64,000 bases of DNA from Clostridium ljungdahlii DSM 13528 (GTDB lineage Bacteria > Bacillota > Clostridia > Clostridiales > Clostridiaceae): positions 3,720,001-3,784,000 of the forward strand of contig NC_014328.1 of NCBI RefSeq assembly GCF_000143685.1. Direction: 5' to 3'. Below, one piece after another: positions 1 to 52,330 of this stretch. The translations under genes were made by a program, and so were the position numbers. The notes below the pieces were generated by a model. That model saw only the letters and a program-made list of their open reading frames with translations. It was not told the DNA's origin and did not search any database. The first letter of the stretch is position 1. Every line of letters begins with the position of its first letter.

Positions 1-285
1 TTTATTTTTCAAAAAATAGTGCATAAAAAATGCTTTTGCCCCATGAAAGTTTACAAGATCAATATGATTTTCTCTTACATAATCTATTAAGTATCTATCA
101 TAGGTGACAGCTCTTTTAAACTTTACTGTATCTATATTCATACTTTTACTTTTATCATAAAGGCCTCCGCCACCTATTGTACCTATAATTGACTGAAATT
201 TATCCTTTGAATAAAAACTCAAATTCAACACATAATTTCCACCGCCGCCTACATCGTTTCCTGATATAACCTGTAGCACCTTCAT
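1..285 (-). CDS. Glycosyltransferase, family-4 type, N-terminal part (runs off window)
   Basis: This is the first 95 codons of a minus-strand gene that continues beyond base 1. The ATG at 283-285 is preceded by GGAGGTG at a good distance. The product begins MKVLQVISGNDVGGGG, the glycine-rich N-terminal loop followed by NYVLNLS that is typical of GT-B fold family-4 glycosyltransferases. About residue 85 there is an HGAKAFFM segment like the 'H.H' acceptor-side region of these enzymes. It is the last visible gene of the polysaccharide locus, lying downstream of the O-antigen ligase-like gene but separated from it by about 400 bp of palindromic repeats. The sugar donor cannot be inferred. The family call is fairly firm; the rest of the gene is not visible. 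Confidence 0.75.
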   Translation of the reverse strand, partial: MKVLQVISGNDVGGGGNYVLNLSFYSKDKFQSIIGTIGGGGLYDKSKSMNIDTVKFKRAVTYDRYLIDYVRENHIDLVNFHGAKAFFMHYFLKNK

Positions 286-335
286 ATCTTTCACCTCCAC
301 TTCAAATAACTCCTAAGTGAAAAATTCACTTATAC

Positions 336-420
336 TCCGGATATTTTTACAATCTTCAGCTCATTAAATATTTTGATAAGTCTAAGTATTTAAAAGAGCT
401 TCATTATTGTAAAAACATCC
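336..420 (+). repeat. Palindromic repeat, subfamily A, core-deleted copy
   Basis: The left arm (CCGGATATTTTTACAATCTT then CAGCTCATTAAATATTTTGA) and the right arm (AAAGAGCTTCATTATTGTAA then AAACATCC) match the outer arms of the full subfamily-A copies at 22681-22903 and 44389-44573. The inner arms and the conserved central loop are missing, so only a short hairpin remains, ending at TAAGTCTAAG. It lies 70 bp from a complete subfamily-B copy at 491-678, the same B-spacer-A arrangement seen near 44.1-44.6 kb. Confidence 0.7.
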
Positions 421-490
421 TTTAGTATACAGTAATTTTCAACTTAGTAATTTTACATAATACATGTAAAATAAATTTGAATCATGCTTA

Positions 491-678
491 GGAATATCTG
501 ACAAAATTGAAATCACATTTAAAAACTTTTTTGGTAAGTCTTAGCTCGCATTTTAGAAAATCTTAGAAGCTTATATATGTTTGAGGTACGAGTTCATATA
601 AGCTTCTTTAGATTTTCAAAATACGAGCTTTAGACTTACTAAAAGTTTTTATAGTGATGAAATTTGTCAGTATATTCC
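491..678 (+). repeat. Long palindromic repeat, subfamily B, complete copy
   Basis: An imperfect inverted repeat of 188 bp with arms of about 85 bp. The left end reads GGAATATCTGACAAAATT and the right end, on the other strand, GGAATATACTGACAAATTT. Inside, GGTAAGTCTTAGCTCGCATT mirrors AGTAAGTCTAAAGCTCGTAT. The loop, TTTGAGGTACGAGTT at 580-594, is not self-complementary and is nearly identical in the other full copies. The element ends 2 bp before the stop codon of the O-antigen ligase-like gene, so as RNA it would form a long hairpin just after that gene. No coding capacity. Confidence 0.85.
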
Positions 679-680
679 CT

Positions 681-21188: not shown

Positions 21189-21208
21189 GAAGGAAGGTGT
21201 TTATCAAG

Positions 21209-22669
21209 GTGTATAAATTAGATCAAAGTGAAACTCCACTGTTTGATGCATTAATGGAATATGTAAATAGGAATACCATTCCTTTTCATGTGCCAGGTCA
21301 TAAAAAAGGGAACGGTATAGACGAAGAGTTTAAAAACTTCATGGGAGAAAACCCCTTTAAAATTGACGTTACTGTATTTAAATTAGTGGATAGTCTTCAC
21401 CATCCTACTGGTCCAATAAAAAGGGCACAGCAATTAGCTGCAGATGCCTATGGCTCTGATGCTGCTTTTTTTTCAATACATGGAACATCTGGTGCTATAC
21501 AAACCATGATCATGTCTGTAGTGAATTCAGGAGATAAAATAATAATTCCAAGAAACGTGCACAAATCCGTTACTGCTGGAATTATATTAAGTGGTGCAAT
21601 ACCTGTATATATGCAACCTGAACTAGATAAAACAATAGGAATTGCCCATGGTGTTACTTCTGAAACCGTAGAAAATACTTTAAAACAAAATCCTGATGCA
21701 AAGGCTGTTTTAATTATAAATCCCACCTATTACGGAGTAGCTGCAGACATTAAAAAAATATCAGATATAGTACACAATTATGATATTCCTTTAATTGTAG
21801 ACGAGGCCCATGGACCACACCTTGGTTTTAACGATAATTTGCCAATATCAGCTATGCAAGCTGGTGCCGATATGTGTTCCCAAAGTACTCATAAAATAAT
21901 AGGTGCTATGACTCAGTGTTCGCTGCTTCACGTTCGTTCAGAGCGTATTGATATACACAAAGTTCAACAAGTTTTATCTCTACTGCAAACAACTTCACCT
22001 TCTTATGTCTTAATGGCTTCGCTGGATTGTGCCAGAAGGCAAATAGCTCTCCATGGAAAAGAATTGCTGAGTAAAGCTATTGACCTGTCAAGTTATGCCA
22101 GGTATAAAATCAACAATGTACCAGGCTTCTACTGTTTTGGTGAAGAAATAGTTGGTAATCCCGGCGTAGTGTCCCTTGATCCTACCAAAATAACCATAAC
22201 CTGTAGAGATTTAGGTATTACAGGCTATGACTTAGATATGATTTTATCAAATAAGTATCATATACAAATGGAACTCTCAGATTTATATAATATTTTAGCT
22301 GTTGGTTCTTTTGGCGATACTAAAGAAAATATAGATGCCCTTATAAATTCTCTAGAAGAAGTAAGTACAGAATACTATGGGAGAGGAACTAGAAAATCAG
22401 ACTTTCTGGATATGCCTTCTATACCAGTACAATTAAAAATTCCGAGAGATGCTTTTAATTCTGAAAAAACGCCGGTGCTGTTAAAAGACAGCATAGGTAT
22501 GATAAGTGGAGAATTTTTAATGGCATATCCTCCTGGAATACCAGTGCTTTGCCCGGGTGAAGAAATAACAAAAGAAATTGTAGACTACGTGCAAGAACTA
22601 AAAGATACTGGATTGTATGTTCAAGGCACAGAAGACCCTGAAGTTGAATATATCAAAGTAGTAAAATAA
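21209..22669 (+). CDS. speA: Orn/Lys/Arg decarboxylase, PLP-dependent
   Basis: A fold-type-I PLP decarboxylase of about 486 residues. FHVPGHKKGNGID near the N-terminus, DAAFFSIHGTSGAIQTMIMS, IVDEAHGPHLGF with the PLP-binding Asp, and STHKIIGAMTQCSLLHV with the Schiff-base lysine are all present. The C-terminal domain ends PPGIPVLCPGEEITKEIVDY. Arginine decarboxylase (agmatine for polyamine synthesis) is the usual role of the single-domain Gram-positive enzyme, but lysine or ornithine cannot be excluded. Two GTG starts are possible (21197 and 21209); AAGGAAGG overlaps the first, so the second is chosen. It is monocistronic, with its own promoter and leader terminator. A long palindrome follows. 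Confidence 0.88.
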   Translation: MYKLDQSETPLFDALMEYVNRNTIPFHVPGHKKGNGIDEEFKNFMGENPFKIDVTVFKLVDSLHHPTGPIKRAQQLAADAYGSDAAFFSIHGTSGAIQTMIMSVVNSGDKIIIPRNVHKSVTAGIILSGAIPVYMQPELDKTIGIAHGVTSETVENTLKQNPDAKAVLIINPTYYGVAADIKKISDIVHNYDIPLIVDEAHGPHLGFNDNLPISAMQAGADMCSQSTHKIIGAMTQCSLLHVRSERIDIHKVQQVLSLLQTTSPSYVLMASLDCARRQIALHGKELLSKAIDLSSYARYKINNVPGFYCFGEEIVGNPGVVSLDPTKITITCRDLGITGYDLDMILSNKYHIQMELSDLYNILAVGSFGDTKENIDALINSLEEVSTEYYGRGTRKSDFLDMPSIPVQLKIPRDAFNSEKTPVLLKDSIGMISGEFLMAYPPGIPVLCPGEEITKEIVDYVQELKDTGLYVQGTEDPEVEYIKVVK

Positions 22670-22680
22670 TTTCTCAAACA

Positions 22681-22903
22681 AAAATAAAATTACACTGCGG
22701 ATATTTTTACAACCTTCAGCCCATTAAATATTTTGATAAGTCCAAGTAAAAAATTTTGAAAAAAACTAATAACTTTTGAAAACTCGTACCTCAGACAATT
22801 CAAAAGCCATAAGTTTTTCAAAAATTTTTTACTAAGACTTATATGAAAAATATTTAAATGGGCTTCATTATTGTAAAAATATCTCTCCGTGTAATTTTAT
22901 TTT
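22681..22903 (-). repeat. Long palindromic repeat, subfamily A, complete copy
   Basis: A 223-bp imperfect palindrome. The outermost arms AAAATAAAATTACAC and GTGTAATTTTATTTT pair exactly. Inside them, GATATTTTTACAACCTTCAG mirrors GATATTTTTACAATAATGAA of the other strand. On the minus strand TAAGTCTTAGTAAAAAATTT and the loop TCTGAGGTACGAGTT are shared with other copies. The outer pair ends in a T-run, so the element may have inserted into, or itself form, the decarboxylase gene's terminator. Confidence 0.85.
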
Positions 22904-22986
22904 TTTGTATAATTATTTTATTCATGTTTGATAGAAATACGTATTAACCATCGTATTAGATTTATGAATAGCTCTTCGGGAGGTAT

Positions 22987-29224: not shown

Positions 29225-29520
29225 ATTAAAAACTCCCGTCCGCTGCATTACGCAAAGGACGGGAGTTTTACTCACGTGTTACCACCTCAAAATTTATTTA
29301 TACATCACTGTATAAACCTCATCGGGTACGGCACAAAAGGCTTATACCCTAGCGATGTAACGGTCGCACCCGGCAACAACCTACTAAGATATAAATCTTT
29401 TCAGTGTACCACTCAGAGATGTATTTCAAAATCTGTTTTCTACCCCTCTCATCAACCGGTAGCTTTCTGTTGAAAACTTATGATTTCTACTTCTTCTCAT
29501 CGCAGTTTTGAATATTTAGC
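29225..29520 (-). ncRNA. T-box leader of tyrS
   Basis: On the minus strand the T-box sequence GAGGTGGTAACACGTG (about 29272-29287) lies upstream of a terminator (ACTCCCGTCC pairing with GGACGGGAGT, then T-rich; 29230-29267). Further 5' are GATGAGAAGAAGTAG (stem I AG-box region) and GAGTGGTACACTG, whose TAC (29406-29408) is the likely tyrosine specifier codon. This is the normal order of a tRNA-sensing T-box riboswitch. Confidence 0.9.
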
Positions 29521-30216: not shown

Positions 30217-30335
30217 TTTATTATTTCTCCTAATTATATAGATAATTTTTACTTCATAATTATTTATTATTTTGAATTTATTAATGTTTCATATTTCAAA
30301 TATATTTATATAACTAAAAGTTGACTTATATTCGG

Positions 30336-30426
30336 AAAATATGAGGACAAAATTGAAAATCACATTCAAAAAATTTTTTAATAAATCTAGAGCTTGGCAT
30401 TTTGAAAACCTATATGGATATTCTAA
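30336..30426 (+). repeat. Palindromic repeat, subfamily B, broken copy
   Basis: The stretch from ATATGAGGACAAAATTGAAA to GGCATTTTGAAAACC matches the outer left arm of the complete B copy at 491-678. The central loop and right arm are missing apart from a possible GATATTC tip. The 1.7-kb duplicated block begins 10 bp further on, so the element was truncated at or near the duplication junction. Confidence 0.65.
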
Positions 30427-41677: not shown

Positions 41678-44059
41678 TTATTGTCTAAGTTGTGCTCCTA
41701 AATTATGCTCTAGTGATCTTATTATTTTGCTATGAACTTTATTAACTTCTTTATCTGTAAGAGTTTTATTTTCAGCTCTATAAGATATTGAATAAGCTAT
41801 GCTCTTCTTTCCACTTTCTATCTGTTTTCCTCTATAAACATCAAACAACTTAACTTTCTCTAGGATATTTCCTCCCTGCTTTCTTATAATGTCCTCTACT
41901 TCCTGTACCATTATATTGTCATCTACTAAAACTGCAAGGTCTCTAGAAACTGCAGGGAATTTAGGCAGAGGTCTGTATTTCTTATCTGAATCAGCATGTT
42001 CATACAAAACATCTAAGTTTAATTCAGCAATATAACATCTTTCATCTATACCATAATTTTCGCATACAGTTGGGTGAATTTCTCCAAGCACTCCTGCTAA
42101 CTTTCTATTTACATAAAGGGCAGCTGTTCTCCCAGGATGGAAAGTTGGATTATCGCTTTCTCTCTTAAAAGAAATCTTCTCTATTCCTAAGGTATCTAAT
42201 ATGTTTTCCACTATACCTTTTAAATTGAAGTAATCACATTCACCATACATTCCAATGGTTACAATATTATCTTCTTCAGGTAAAGTATCACCATTTTCTA
42301 GTGGAAGATACACTCTTCCAATTTCAAATAACCTTACAATCTCATTTTTTCTTGAATAGTTTCTACCTAAGCATTCCATCATAGACGCTAATGTAGTTGT
42401 TCTCATTATGCTGTAGTCTTCTCCCAAAGGATTTTTTATAGCTATAGCATTTCTAAGCTTGCTATCTTCAGGTAAAAGTATTTTATCAAATACTTTCCTA
42501 CTTACAAAAGAGTAACTTATGGATTGATTTAATCCACTTGAAATAAGTGTTTCTACCAATTTATCATCCAGCTTTTGCTTTGGATTCTTTCCTCCTCTTG
42601 TACTTACACTTTCTATTACAGTAGTAGGTACATTACTGTATCCATATATTCTAGCCACCTCTTCTGCCACATCTTCTCTTATATTTATATCTCCCCTAAA
42701 AGTAGGAACATCTATATGTAAAATGTCTCCTTTAAGCTGAGTTTTTAATTCCAGTCTATTTAAATAATCTACCATATTTTCCTTAGGTATTTCAGTACCC
42801 AAAAATTTATTTACCCAGTTGGAATCAACGTCTACGCTGTGAGGTTCAATTTTTTCATCATATACATCAATTGTACCTTCCATAACTTTTCCTGCTTTTA
42901 GCATCTCAACTAAATTGCAAGCTCTGTTCATAGCAATTTCAGCTAAATTAGGATCAAGATCCTTTTCAAATCTACCTGAAGCTTCTGTTCTAAGTGCCAA
43001 CTTTTGTGAAGAAACTCTTATATTAGTCCCATCAAAGTTAGCACACTCAAATACTATAGAAGAAGTATCATCTCTTATCTCAGAATTAAGTCCACCCATT
43101 ATTCCTGCAAGTCCGATAGTTCTGTCTCCATCTCTAATTGTAAGCATATCTTGATTAAGCTGTCTTTCCTCTTCATCAAGAGTAGTAAATTTTTCTCCAT
43201 CTTTAGCTGTGTCTACAACTATAGTGCCAGATTTTATCTCCCTTACATCATAAGCATGCATAGGTTCTCCTATTTCAAGCATTACAAAATTAGTTATATC
43301 AACTATATTGTTTATTGGCCTTACACCTGCTTCTAAAAGTCTCTCCTGCATCCATGAAGGTGATGGCTCTATTTTTACATCTTTTATGCCCCTTGCCATA
43401 TACCTTTTGCAAAGTTTATCTTTTATTTCTACTTTTAATGTATCTTGAATATTTTCGCTGCAGGAAGGCTTATAATCTAATTCCGGAATTTTGTAGCTTT
43501 CATTTAAAGTTGCAGCAGTTTCCCTTGCCATTCCTATAATGCTAAGACAATCAGGTCTATTTGAAGTTATCTCAAAATCCAGTATAGTACTTGTCATATC
43601 AAGTACTTCCTTTATGTCCTTGCCAATTGGCGTATCTTCTTTTAAAATCATAAGTCCATATACAGGTTTATCTCCTGCTATGCCAAGCTCTTCCTCAGAA
43701 CAAAACATTCCATTTGACATAAGACCTCTTAGTTTTCCTTTTTTAATCTTCACCCCACCATGAAGTGTAGAGTCATGAAGCGCTACAGGAACTATATCTT
43801 GTTCTTTCATATTAGTAGCAGCTGTTATAATTTGAATAGGTTCTTCTTTTCCTATATCTACCTGACATACAACAAGTTTATCTGCCTGAGGATGACTTTC
43901 TATCTTCATTATTTTACCTGTAACTACATTTTGGATTTCATCTCCAGTTACAATTGCCTCTTCAAGTTTTGAACCACTTAAAGTCAATCTATCTCCTAAT
44001 TCTTTTCCTGGAATATCTATTTTAACATAATCCTTTAACCATTTTACTGGAACTTTCAT
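41678..44059 (-). CDS. pheT: Phenylalanyl-tRNA synthetase beta subunit
   Basis: A beta subunit of about 793 residues. Domains in order: the N-terminal tRNA-binding EMAP-like fold ([20 protein letters not shown]), B3/B4 editing domain (DILDFEIT-type [20 protein letters not shown]), B5 ([20 protein letters not shown]), the synthetase-like core with [12 protein letters not shown], and the C-terminal anticodon-binding domain ([20 protein letters not shown]). The open frame runs 31 codons upstream into repeat-flanking DNA, but AAAGGAGAT before ATG 44057-44059 fixes the start. It works as an alpha2beta2 enzyme with PheS. Two long palindromes separate it from pheS. Confidence 0.95.
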
Positions 44060-44125
44060 ACAAAAATCTCCTTTCAAATTTTTAATCTTTGCAAACCTTC
44101 TAGTTAAAAATTCACATATACCGCC

Positions 44126-44313
44126 GAATATGCTGACAAATTTCAGCACCATAAAAACTTTTAATAAGTCTAAAGTTCGATATTTTGAAAACCTAAGAAG
44201 CTTAGCTAAACTCGTACCTCAGACATATCTAAACTTCTAAGATTTTCTAAAATATCTCACTAAGACTTATAAAAAATTTTTTAAACGTGCTTTCAATTTT
44301 GTCATCATATTCT
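44126..44313 (-). repeat. Long palindromic repeat, subfamily B, inside the pheS-pheT operon
   Basis: A 188-bp copy, in the opposite orientation to, but the same length as, the one at 491-678. Read on the minus strand it begins GAATATGATGACAAAATTGA, holds TTTTAGAAAATCTTAGAAG and the loop TCTGAGGTACGAGTT, and ends GAAATTTGTCAGCATATTCG. The arms pair over about 85 bp. Confidence 0.85.
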
Positions 44314-44388
44314 CAGGTATAAGGTCAAATTTTACATAGAAAATTTTAAGTATAATTTCTAATTTAAAAATTCACTCTATTCATAAGC

Positions 44389-44573
44389 ATATTTTTACAA
44401 CAATGAAGCACTTTTAAATGTTTTGTACATAAGTCTTAGTAAAAAATTCGTAAAAATCTTAGAATTTTTGAATTGTTTGAGGTACGAGTTTTCAAAAGTT
44501 CTTAGATTTTCTAGAATTTTTTGCTTAGACTTATCAAAATATTTAATGGGCTGAAGGTTGTAAAAACATGCGG
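44389..44573 (+). repeat. Long palindromic repeat, subfamily A, inside the pheS-pheT operon
   Basis: Starts CATATTTTTACAACAATGAA and ends GAAGGTTGTAAAAACATGCG; TAAGTCTTAGTAAAAAATTC on one side mirrors TTTTTTGCTTAGACTTAT on the other, and the loop is TTTGAGGTACGAGTT at 44489-44503. It lies 75 bp from the B copy, making a B-spacer-A composite that fills most of the 545-bp gap between pheS and pheT. Confidence 0.85.
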
Positions 44574-44604
44574 AGAATGAGTTAACTTTTATTTAGAAAC
44601 TCTA

Positions 44605-45618
44605 TTAAAATTGATTTAAAAATCTCATGTCACTTTCATACATGTTTCTTATATCATCTATTCCGTATTTTAACATGACCATCCTATCTACACCCATTCC
44701 AAAAGCAAATCCACTATAAACTTCAGGATCTATTCCACAATTTCTAAGTACCTGAGGATGAACCATTCCGCATCCTAAAAGTTCTATCCACCCTTCTCCC
44801 TTACATACTCTGCAGCCTTTTCCATGGCATACAAAGCAACTGGCATCCATTTCTGCAGAAGGTTCTGTAAAAGGGAAATGATGAGGTCTGAATTTTGTAC
44901 GTATGTCATTTCCGAATAACTTTTTAGCAAATAGTTCAAGAGTGCCTTTTAAATTTGCAAAAGTTATACCTTTGTCAACTACTAGGCCTTCCATTTGATA
45001 AAATATAGGTGAATGAGTAGCATCCACTGAATCTGAACGATAAACTTTACCTGGAGATATCATCTTTATTGGGGGTTTTTGTTTTTCCATAGTTCTTACC
45101 TGTATTGGAGAAGTTTGAGTTCTAAGCACTACATTGTCATTTATATAAAAGGTATCCTGTTCACCCCTTGCTGGATGATTTTTAGGTATGTTAAGTGCTT
45201 CAAAGTTATAATAATCCTTCTCTACTTCAGGACCTTCTTCTATAGTAAATCCCATAGAAATAAATATCTGTTTCATCTCTTCTAGTGTTTGTTCTAGCGG
45301 ATGGCGCTTTCCTACAGTTTGCTTTATGCCAGGCATAGTAATATCAATTGTTTCATTCTGCAGCTTTGCTTGTATAGCACTTGATTTTATCTTTTTTGAT
45401 GCCTCTTCTATAGCATTTTCCAGTGTACTCCTCACTTCATTGGCAAGCTTACCAATTGCAGGTCTTTCTTCTTTGGAAAGATCCTTCATGCCCCTGAGTA
45501 TTTTTGTAAGTTCTCCCTTTTTACCTAAATATTTAACTCTTATATCCTCTATATCTAACTTTTTATTTTTTAATTCGTTAAAGGCATTTTCCTTTATCTG
45601 TTTTAATTCTTCTTTCAT
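44605..45618 (-). CDS. pheS: Phenylalanyl-tRNA synthetase alpha subunit
   Basis: A class II synthetase alpha subunit of about 337 residues. The N-terminal coiled coil is followed by the catalytic core: [40 protein letters not shown], motif 2 [20 protein letters not shown] and motif 3 [21 protein letters not shown] Cys cluster ([17 protein letters not shown]) is as usual. AAAGGAG before ATG 45616-45618 shows that the six-codon upstream extension is not used. It is first in the pheST operon, behind a T-box leader. The unusually large gap to pheT holds the palindromes. Confidence 0.95.
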
Positions 45619-45661
45619 TTTAAACTCTCCTTTCACTACAATCTTTTTAATTTAAAACAAA

Positions 45662-45922
45662 AATAAAAAGCCCATCCCTCTAAGGGACGAACTTTGATCC
45701 GCGTTACCACCCAAATTGATACTATTAGAAATAATATCCTCTTTGTATATTTTAACGATAATTAACCGCTGACTACTAATTATAATTTCACAGCCAGTAC
45801 TCCAGGAGGAACTTCAATATATAATGTTTTAAAAAAAGCTTTCAGCCCTGACTTTTTTTCTCTGATAAAAATCATATATCTACTTTCTCTTTCACAGTAA
45901 GTGTCCTTATTCAACTTTTATT
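45662..45922 (-). ncRNA. T-box leader of pheST
   Basis: On the minus strand GGGTGGTAACGCGGAT is the T-box, followed by a terminator (GTTCGTCCC with GGGATGGGC, then TTTTTATTTTTG). Upstream are AGAGAAAGTAGAT (AG-box region) and GAAGTTCCTCC, whose TTC is the likely phenylalanine specifier codon. Confidence 0.88.
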
Positions 45923-51949: not shown

Positions 51950-52025
51950 GGGCGCATAGCTCAGCTGGGAGAGCATCTGCCTTACAAGCAGAGGGTCACA
52001 GGTTCGAGCCCTGTTGTGCCCACCA
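51950..52025 (+). tRNA. tRNA-Val (anticodon TAC)
   Basis: A full cloverleaf: acceptor GGGCGCA with TGTGCCC, D-arm AGCTCAGCTGGGAGAGC, anticodon loop CTTACAA, T-arm with GGTTCGAGCC, and an encoded CCA. It is the first of four tandem tRNAs. Confidence 0.97.
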
Positions 52026-52088
52026 ATTTGTATACTATTACTTTTTTAAAGTATAGTTTGTAAATGTTCGAGGCAATATATTGTCTTT

Positions 52089-52164
<76 letters not shown>

Positions 52165-52176
52165 GATTTAAAACAT

Positions 52177-52251
52177 GCGGGAGTGGCTCAGTGGTAGAGC
52201 GTCACCTTGCCAAGGTGAACGTCGCGAGTTCGAATCTCGTCTTCCGCTCCA
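52177..52251 (+). tRNA. tRNA-Gly (anticodon GCC)
   Basis: Acceptor GCGGGAG with CTTCCGC (one G-U pair), D-arm GGCTCAGTGGTAGAGC, anticodon loop TTGCCAA, T-arm AGTTCGAATCT, encoded CCA. Confidence 0.97.
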
Positions 52252-52256
52252 ATAAT

Positions 52257-52330
<74 letters not shown>

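Follow-up and report, generated by a model that had tools for sequence, protein, structure and literature searches.

Giant hairpins with a nearly invariant tip form head-to-head heterodimers near gene 3' ends in Clostridium ljungdahlii and some of its relatives

What are the long palindromes that lie between pheS and pheT of Clostridium ljungdahlii DSM 13528, and what keeps their loop nearly invariant? The window analyzed here, a 64,000-nucleotide stretch of the chromosome, had been predicted from its letters to contain five or six such palindromes in two subfamilies, A and B. The A/B split held, as did the TAAGTCTTAG box, which is present in both types. The predicted boundaries, however, were too short, and alignment and profiles extended all six elements. 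Two type B spans of 188 bp that had been taken for complete copies indeed cover the same part of two B copies, but represent an inner part rather than whole elements. The loop is present in four of the six listed copies and missing from two: that at 336-420 is a collapsed type A with its core deleted, and that at 30336-30426 is a degenerate type B. The elements and their parts are as follows.

308..447, minus strand: collapsed type A that lacks inner arms and loop, paired with the next type B (two A-profile matches, 172-252 and 9-71, minus strand)
469..680, plus strand: type B with a degraded 3' end, loop TTTGAGGTACGAGTT at 580-594 (B-profile match 14-228, score 194)
22669..22908, minus strand: type A, loop TCTGAGGTACGAGTT at 22781-22795 (A-profile match 12-251, score 206)
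30311..30411, plus strand: degenerate 5' part of a type B, without loop (B-profile match 12-110, score 36)
44094..44342, minus strand: type B, the pheT-side member of the composite (B-profile match 8-257, score 220)
44209..44223, minus strand: loop of this B element, TCTGAGGTACGAGTT (loop match)
44343..44356, no strand: 14 bp junction of the two 5' ends, without linker M (pair reading)
44357..44605, plus strand: type A, the pheS-side member of the composite (A-profile match 7-256, score 218)
44476..44490, plus strand: loop of this A element, TTTGAGGTACGAGTT (loop match)

The outer end CTCTA of the type A element at 44357..44605 abuts the pheS stop codon (44605-44607); the minus-strand ORF at 44605-45636 is PheS by Pfam, which also confirmed the identity of the pheS-pheT pair. 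The type A element at 22669..22908 lies directly behind the stop of an ORF (21197-22669) for an Orn/Lys/Arg decarboxylase-like protein (Pfam PF01276). On one strand, the A loop at 44476-44490 is complementary to the B loop at 44209-44223. With up to three mismatches allowed, the window contains 6 loop matches compared to a mean of 1.62 in shuffles, a number that was reached in 2 of 100 shuffles and is mildly above chance. The window also carries two T-box leaders, at 45680-45904 and 29252-29512 (minus strand), one of them preceding pheS, and a cluster of four tRNA genes (51950-52327, plus strand).

A genome-wide search, as had been proposed with the original prediction, revealed further copies: the exact 13-mer loop core TGAGGTACGAGTT occurs 66 times in the 4,630,065-base chromosome (32 forward and 34 reverse), and its reversed control not once. 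TGTYTGAGGTACGAGTT is present in 9 of 206 Clostridiaceae genomes and in 4 of 46 genera, and in some Clostridium genomes the family is repeated dozens of times. Single 13-mer matches in the genomes G062 and G085 were not hairpins by eye and were rejected. Alignment of the 66 loop-bearing copies defined the unit as a hairpin of ~255 bp with ends TATAGAG..CTCTATA and thus with terminal inverted repeats. A and B share an outer stem, TATAGAGTTTCTAA..TTAGAAACTCTATA, which encloses the type-specific arms, the TAAGTCTTAG box and the loop. When sorted by the letters preceding the loop, the 66 copies comprised 38 A and 28 B, with one A falling among the B. A profile search of parts of the C. ljungdahlii genome yielded 86 non-overlapping matches, including copies and remnants without the exact loop, and whole-element similarity added further copies (the best 40 candidates were scored for each type). 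The 14-bp end, with at most one mismatch, was found at 73 places in the genome (control, 9); no transposase-bearing or autonomous version was seen at the 25 of these places that were read by eye, some of which are probably chance matches. In Rfam, the window and ten element-bearing loci gave no hairpin match above the gathering score. Among the literature matches listed for C. ljungdahlii repeats and similar elements, the text available held no description of the element, and the matches listed for the loop core and for the class 2 cores considered below had unrelated titles.

To describe the fold, we analyzed covariation in 41 core sequences, 20 from C. ljungdahlii, 19 from C. thailandense and 2 from genome G019. 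Across 18 stem pairs, 93.1% of the 738 cells were paired, and 14 of the 18 pairs had changed on both sides. Doubly changed cells numbered 107, compared to 31.7 after shuffling (107 was reached in 0 of 500 shuffles) and at most 22 in slid versions, where it should be noted that the structure was predicted on the same alignment, which favours it over the slid versions, and that related sequences inflate covariation counts. For the composite in the window, the predicted fold consists of two giant hairpins that remain separate (-164.9 kcal/mol, z -14.3), and the A unit alone, folded as DNA, has a z of -9.0. The ~255 bp hairpin of each unit combines conserved ends with arms that diverge freely but remain complementary and with an apical sequence that hardly varies.

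Adjacent matches in (-)(+) orientation within 700 bp paired A with B in 25 of 25 cases, several of the partners being low-scoring remnants. Three more adjacent pairs comprised two A/B and one A/A, and a single A(+)B(+) tandem pair was found at 3523537-3524042. The fullest copies are head-to-head heterodimers, A'-linker-B, with TATAGAG ends facing outward; the linker, in one example 141 bp long with a small hairpin of its own, occurs in both orientations (by eye). C. thailandense follows the same dimer plan with its own two types (L130, L141 and L168), and in genome G197 a unit with the class 2 tip described below is paired with one of class 1 (L367). A glmS ribozyme adjoins one head-to-head pair (L130, 490-699). 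Both the A/B heterodimer and the anchoring to stop codons had been missed in the first reading of the sequence.

The anchoring concerns the outer ends. Located between -5 and +22 bp from a facing stop codon (ORFs of at least 60 codons) were 53 of 66 intact outer ends, with 2 more within 150 bp; 5' ends were near a stop in 14 of 69 cases, at scattered positions. Six of the 13 unanchored outer ends belong to dimers that are anchored through their other member, and the ends at 609277 and 609674 are the two members of one dimer, neither of which lies within 22 bp of a stop. In C. thailandense, a stop was found 115-164 bp 3' of the loop in 14 of 26 cases (2 more when an insert is discounted), whereas the 5' side had one in 5 of 26. 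Another family of palindromic repeats, AATTAATAGTTAAGAATGAAGAATTAATAGTT..., is found at the same positions behind stops or next to the elements (C. ljungdahlii ~531.8k and ~2145.1k; C. ragsdalei, G004, L233, L236, L237 and L241).

The first set of copies had been picked by the loop itself, and we therefore measured loop conservation on 40 A and 30 B places gathered by whole-element similarity (with one B place and the interrupted or partial B places set aside). The exact 13-mer was kept in 36 of the 40 A and 26 of the 30 B places, compared to ~27% and ~23% expected if the 13-mer had changed as fast as the remainder of the element; a few other windows of A and B show equal conservation. Different stems surround the same loop in C. 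thailandense, G019/G201, G185 and, most markedly, G196/G197. These cross-genus copies were fetched by their loop and are thus evidence for stem divergence rather than for loop conservation. The proposal that function resides in the invariant loop gains support from the retention of the loop above the rest-of-element rate in the whole-element sets and from its survival, in these loop-fetched copies, between stems that are no longer recognizable across genera.

The loop had also been described as non-palindromic and unpaired, a description that needs amendment, because a GNA-triloop mini-hairpin of one or two pairs probably forms inside it. Between TYTGA and GAGTT, the flanks to which the count of variant cores was limited, the class 1 core in hairpin contexts reads GGTAC in 180 cases, GGCAC in 10, GGTAT in 4, and GGAAC, GGCAT and GACAC in 1 each. 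The G-GNA-C/T triloop is kept in 16 of the 17 variant cores, some of which, orthologues included, may share descent, and none of 517 loci has GTA in the loop replaced by four free bases. GNA loops on at least two G-C pairs are described, in the text available, as extraordinarily stable DNA mini-hairpins (PMC4686876). The combination of freely changing, still-paired stems with one fixed tip sequence suggests that the tip may be recognized by something in the cell. Kissing between A and B loops was considered as a cause of the conservation, the loops being complementary, but was not adopted because the four B copies whose loop has changed are each paired with an A that is unaltered. Four distinct copies, at ~641.6k (L017) and ~1233.7k (L294) in C. 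ljungdahlii, L164 in C. ragsdalei and L314 in ERI-2, carry an insertion of another palindrome, starting with TATCCGATGACTA, directly on the 3' side of the loop (GAGTT/TATCCGATGACTA); the insertion point is the same, as if the hairpin tip were its target.

At sites shared between close relatives, with flanks mostly 90-98% identical, the copies differ by inversion, by formation of an A/B chimera at the TAAGTCT box and by collapse of the core. Thus, between pheS and pheT, C. ljungdahlii carries A'-B, C. ragsdalei carries B'-A, and ERI-2 carries a chimera with its joint in the TAAGTCT box. The ten collapsed palindromes that were read measure 46-137 bp. In two C. thailandense copies (L119 and L173), the 3' arm is interrupted at roughly the same position by an insert that contains AAACTCCTCTTCC.

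The reading that we favour, with slightly better than even confidence, is that of a giant, REP-like, non-autonomous dispersed palindrome, arranged in BIME-like dimers, with the tip as its recognition site. A putative trans-acting enzyme would recognize the tip, TGTYTGA-[G GNA C]-GAGTT (in class 2, [GC GNA GC]), in DNA that is single-stranded or extruded, and would spread the element, the stem serving only to present the tip. Units would settle at gene 3' ends, or be retained there, because as a 3' UTR hairpin they could take the place of the native terminator. A and B might be unlike because equal head-to-head arms would create a palindrome of ~500 bp, which the cell would remove. Against this reading, the composite inside pheS-pheT would split the operon if it terminated well, the terminator scan considered below detected no canonical terminator in it, and our searches found no enzyme and no autonomous version, and neither target duplications above the chance level nor a clean empty site. 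The transposase site suggested in the original prediction is plausible, although no enzyme was found.

Alternatively, the hairpin could be a 3' UTR RNA element kept for the transcript of the upstream gene, as a terminator, an RNase III site or a landing place for a loop-reading protein or small RNA, its spread being secondary. We consider this unlikely, even though the strong RNA fold and the stop anchoring of 53 of 66 outer ends speak for it, as does the absence, by eye, of the relatives' terminator-like hairpins where the element sits. Relatives without the element have a terminator-like hairpin behind the stop at three of six gene sites read by eye (sites 0, 25 and 44, at the last in two of three relatives; the remaining sites are 11, 27 and 47), and ERI-2 (G005) has one at site 21, 1 of seven sites read by eye. 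Furthermore, the G197 hairpin L375 lies 2 bp behind a stop and is enclosed by a stem, GGGGCTGTCTCAAAATAT..ATATTTTGAGACAGCCCC, with a T-run after it, which also favours an RNA role. By contrast, the presence of the family is patchy (9 of 206 genomes), and type switches and inversions occur at the same site. At anchored ends, the GNA strand is antisense to the gene in C. ljungdahlii and sense in G197 L375 and L469, so that no single strand reading is kept. The position between pheS and pheT, genes that are spaced by 42-67 bp in the non-carriers G003, G010, G011 and G012 (four junctions read), argues against an RNA role as well, as do the lack of an Rfam family and of a canonical terminator, although the terminator scan of 43950-44720 that returned 0 had a loop limit of 8, which excludes these hairpins. 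Among the literature matches listed for transcript-end maps, none concerned C. ljungdahlii itself. Giant hairpins enclosed by a GC-rich stem of the GGGGCTGTCNCAA..TTGNGACAGCCCC type, in some cases imperfect, were seen at L375 and L359 in G197 and at L082, L087, L154 and L119 in C. thailandense; a T-rich stretch follows several of these stems, giving them a terminator-like appearance.

It is quite improbable, in our judgement, that the element is a conventional palindromic MITE, mobilized by a DDE transposase acting on the TATAGAG terminal inverted repeat with duplication of TA, and that the loop is conserved only through the youth of the family. Such an element would account for the multiple copies and for the conserved ends TATAGAG..CTCTATA, often with TA. 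However, the family is not young: the stems have strongly diverged between genera around a fixed loop, and they covary. In addition, the outer ends differ between species, and random insertion would hardly place 53 of 66 ends at most 22 bp from a stop. The test for target duplications proposed with the original prediction found none beyond chance, although a TA duplication within the ends would not be distinguishable: for the 40 of 69 units whose ends are clear, flanking direct repeats of 1-8 bp were no commoner than in shuffles.

The companion test, for empty sites at orthologous loci, found no clean empty site at 14 sites and 10 collapsed sites (8 of them aligned). No match was found at 5 of the 14 sites in C. 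ragsdalei (G004) and at 2 in ERI-2 (G005), one of the latter being a contig end. The vacant C. ragsdalei places carry other repeats, and the vacant ERI-2 place off the contig end carries a terminator-like hairpin. With other repeats, a terminator or rearranged sequence in the vacant places that were read, these did not reveal a target sequence. Insertion into the loops of native terminators was rejected for C. ljungdahlii, where flank complementarity was at the null level (4.55 vs 4.48 in one test; 12.83 vs 12.66, n=65, in another); in C. thailandense, it was suggestive only (14.78 vs 12.78, sd 0.69, n=23).

Returning to the favoured reading of a palindrome mobilized through its tip, the enzyme search was limited to the Y1 transposase family PF01797, which had matches in 6 of the 9 genomes searched. 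The carriers C. ragsdalei (G004) and ERI-2 (G005) have 2 and 3 matches, respectively, and there was none in the carriers C. ljungdahlii and G019 or in G003, where a remote homologue or a past loss is possible. A REP/BIME mobilized by RAYT in the strict sense is very improbable: heterodimers, location at ORF 3' ends, ends supplying TAG stops and singles as remnants match the REP descriptions in the text available (PMC3733652), and the carriers C. ragsdalei and ERI-2 have Y1 transposases, but the units measure 255 bp rather than 20-40 bp and have no GTAG/CGTC tag, and PF01797 has no match in the carriers C. ljungdahlii and G019.

A second tip class, GC-NNA-GC, occurs beside class 1 in C. thailandense, G019 and G197. 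A scan of viral contigs with the triloop left free yielded 107 matches in 56 distinct contexts, 15 of which fold as long hairpins, versus 0 of 56 in the control with mismatched partners. The triloops of the 15 viral hairpins are GTA (6), GCA (5), GAA (3) and ATA (1), all ending in A, so that GNA accounts for 14 of 15 in hairpins versus 20 of 41 outside them. One class 2 hairpin is located behind a gene whose product resembles the P2 major capsid protein (identity ~42%), and the GC content of 17 class 2 loci ranges from 30 to 63%. In the viral contigs, the class 1 17-mer had 0 matches, and the class 1 15-mer matched 17 stretches in 14 distinct contexts without any hairpin. The class 2 hairpin region L469 had no match among annotated phages, and the region L473 none among annotated plasmids. 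That class 2 belongs to the same family as class 1 is, judging from these sequences, a lead and not a demonstration. Possibly, although we regard this as rather doubtful, the tip TGTTTGA-[(G/GC) GNA (C/GC)]-GAGTT on giant hairpins with unrelated stems marks a cross-phylum class of gene-end palindromes spanning Clostridia and, for class 2, prophage and viral contigs of other hosts, in which a putative enzyme would read the GNA mini-hairpin in single-stranded DNA.

REP-like repeats have been linked to tiny hairpins and a single type of transposase. The present family, with its covarying stems and fixed tip, is ten times larger and occurs in a genome that has no Y1 match, which suggests that the dimer plan and the 3'-end habit can arise on another basis, and the GNA tip provides a concrete ligand for finding the protein. 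The element also bears on the remodelling of gene 3' ends in industrial acetogens, where it appears to replace native terminators, and on the assembly and annotation of carrier genomes.

MITEs such as ERIC or Correia are non-coding and multi-copy, have terminal inverted repeats and end at TA-rich sequence. The Clostridium element shares these properties, but differs in its conserved tip, covarying stems, heterodimer rule and stop anchoring, and no duplication was found beyond chance. Mini-hairpins of the GCGAAGC type resemble the tips in that GC-GNA-GC is present in 14 of 15 class 2 tips and G-GNA-C in class 1, where the single G-C pair is below the two or more named for such hairpins; the available text of PMC4686876 describes them as a physical and technical motif rather than as the tip of a giant hairpin. 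REP/BIME sequences with RAYT are likewise dispersed intergenic palindromes with head-to-head heterodimers and complementary stem changes (PMC2817692 and PMC3733652, in the text available). According to the available text of PMC3733652, the REP heterodimers have structured spacers and lie at most 20 bp from ORF 3' ends, their termini can supply TAG stops to the ORFs, singles are remnants of dimers, and heterodimers are suggested to escape clearance. The Clostridium units are also paired in opposite orientation and located near gene 3' ends, and the stop-supplying termini and singles as dimer remnants are further points of likeness. However, REP units measure 20-40 bp, about ten times less than the ~255 bp here; they carry an invariant GTAG/CGTC foot in place of the TATAGAG..CTCTATA ends and the long, nearly invariant loop; and REPs go with a cognate RAYT (Y1) in the genome, for which C. 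ljungdahlii has no match. Thus, the dimer plan is shared with REPs whereas the size, the foot tag and, in C. ljungdahlii, the enzyme are not, and we describe the element as REP-like in working rather than as a REP.
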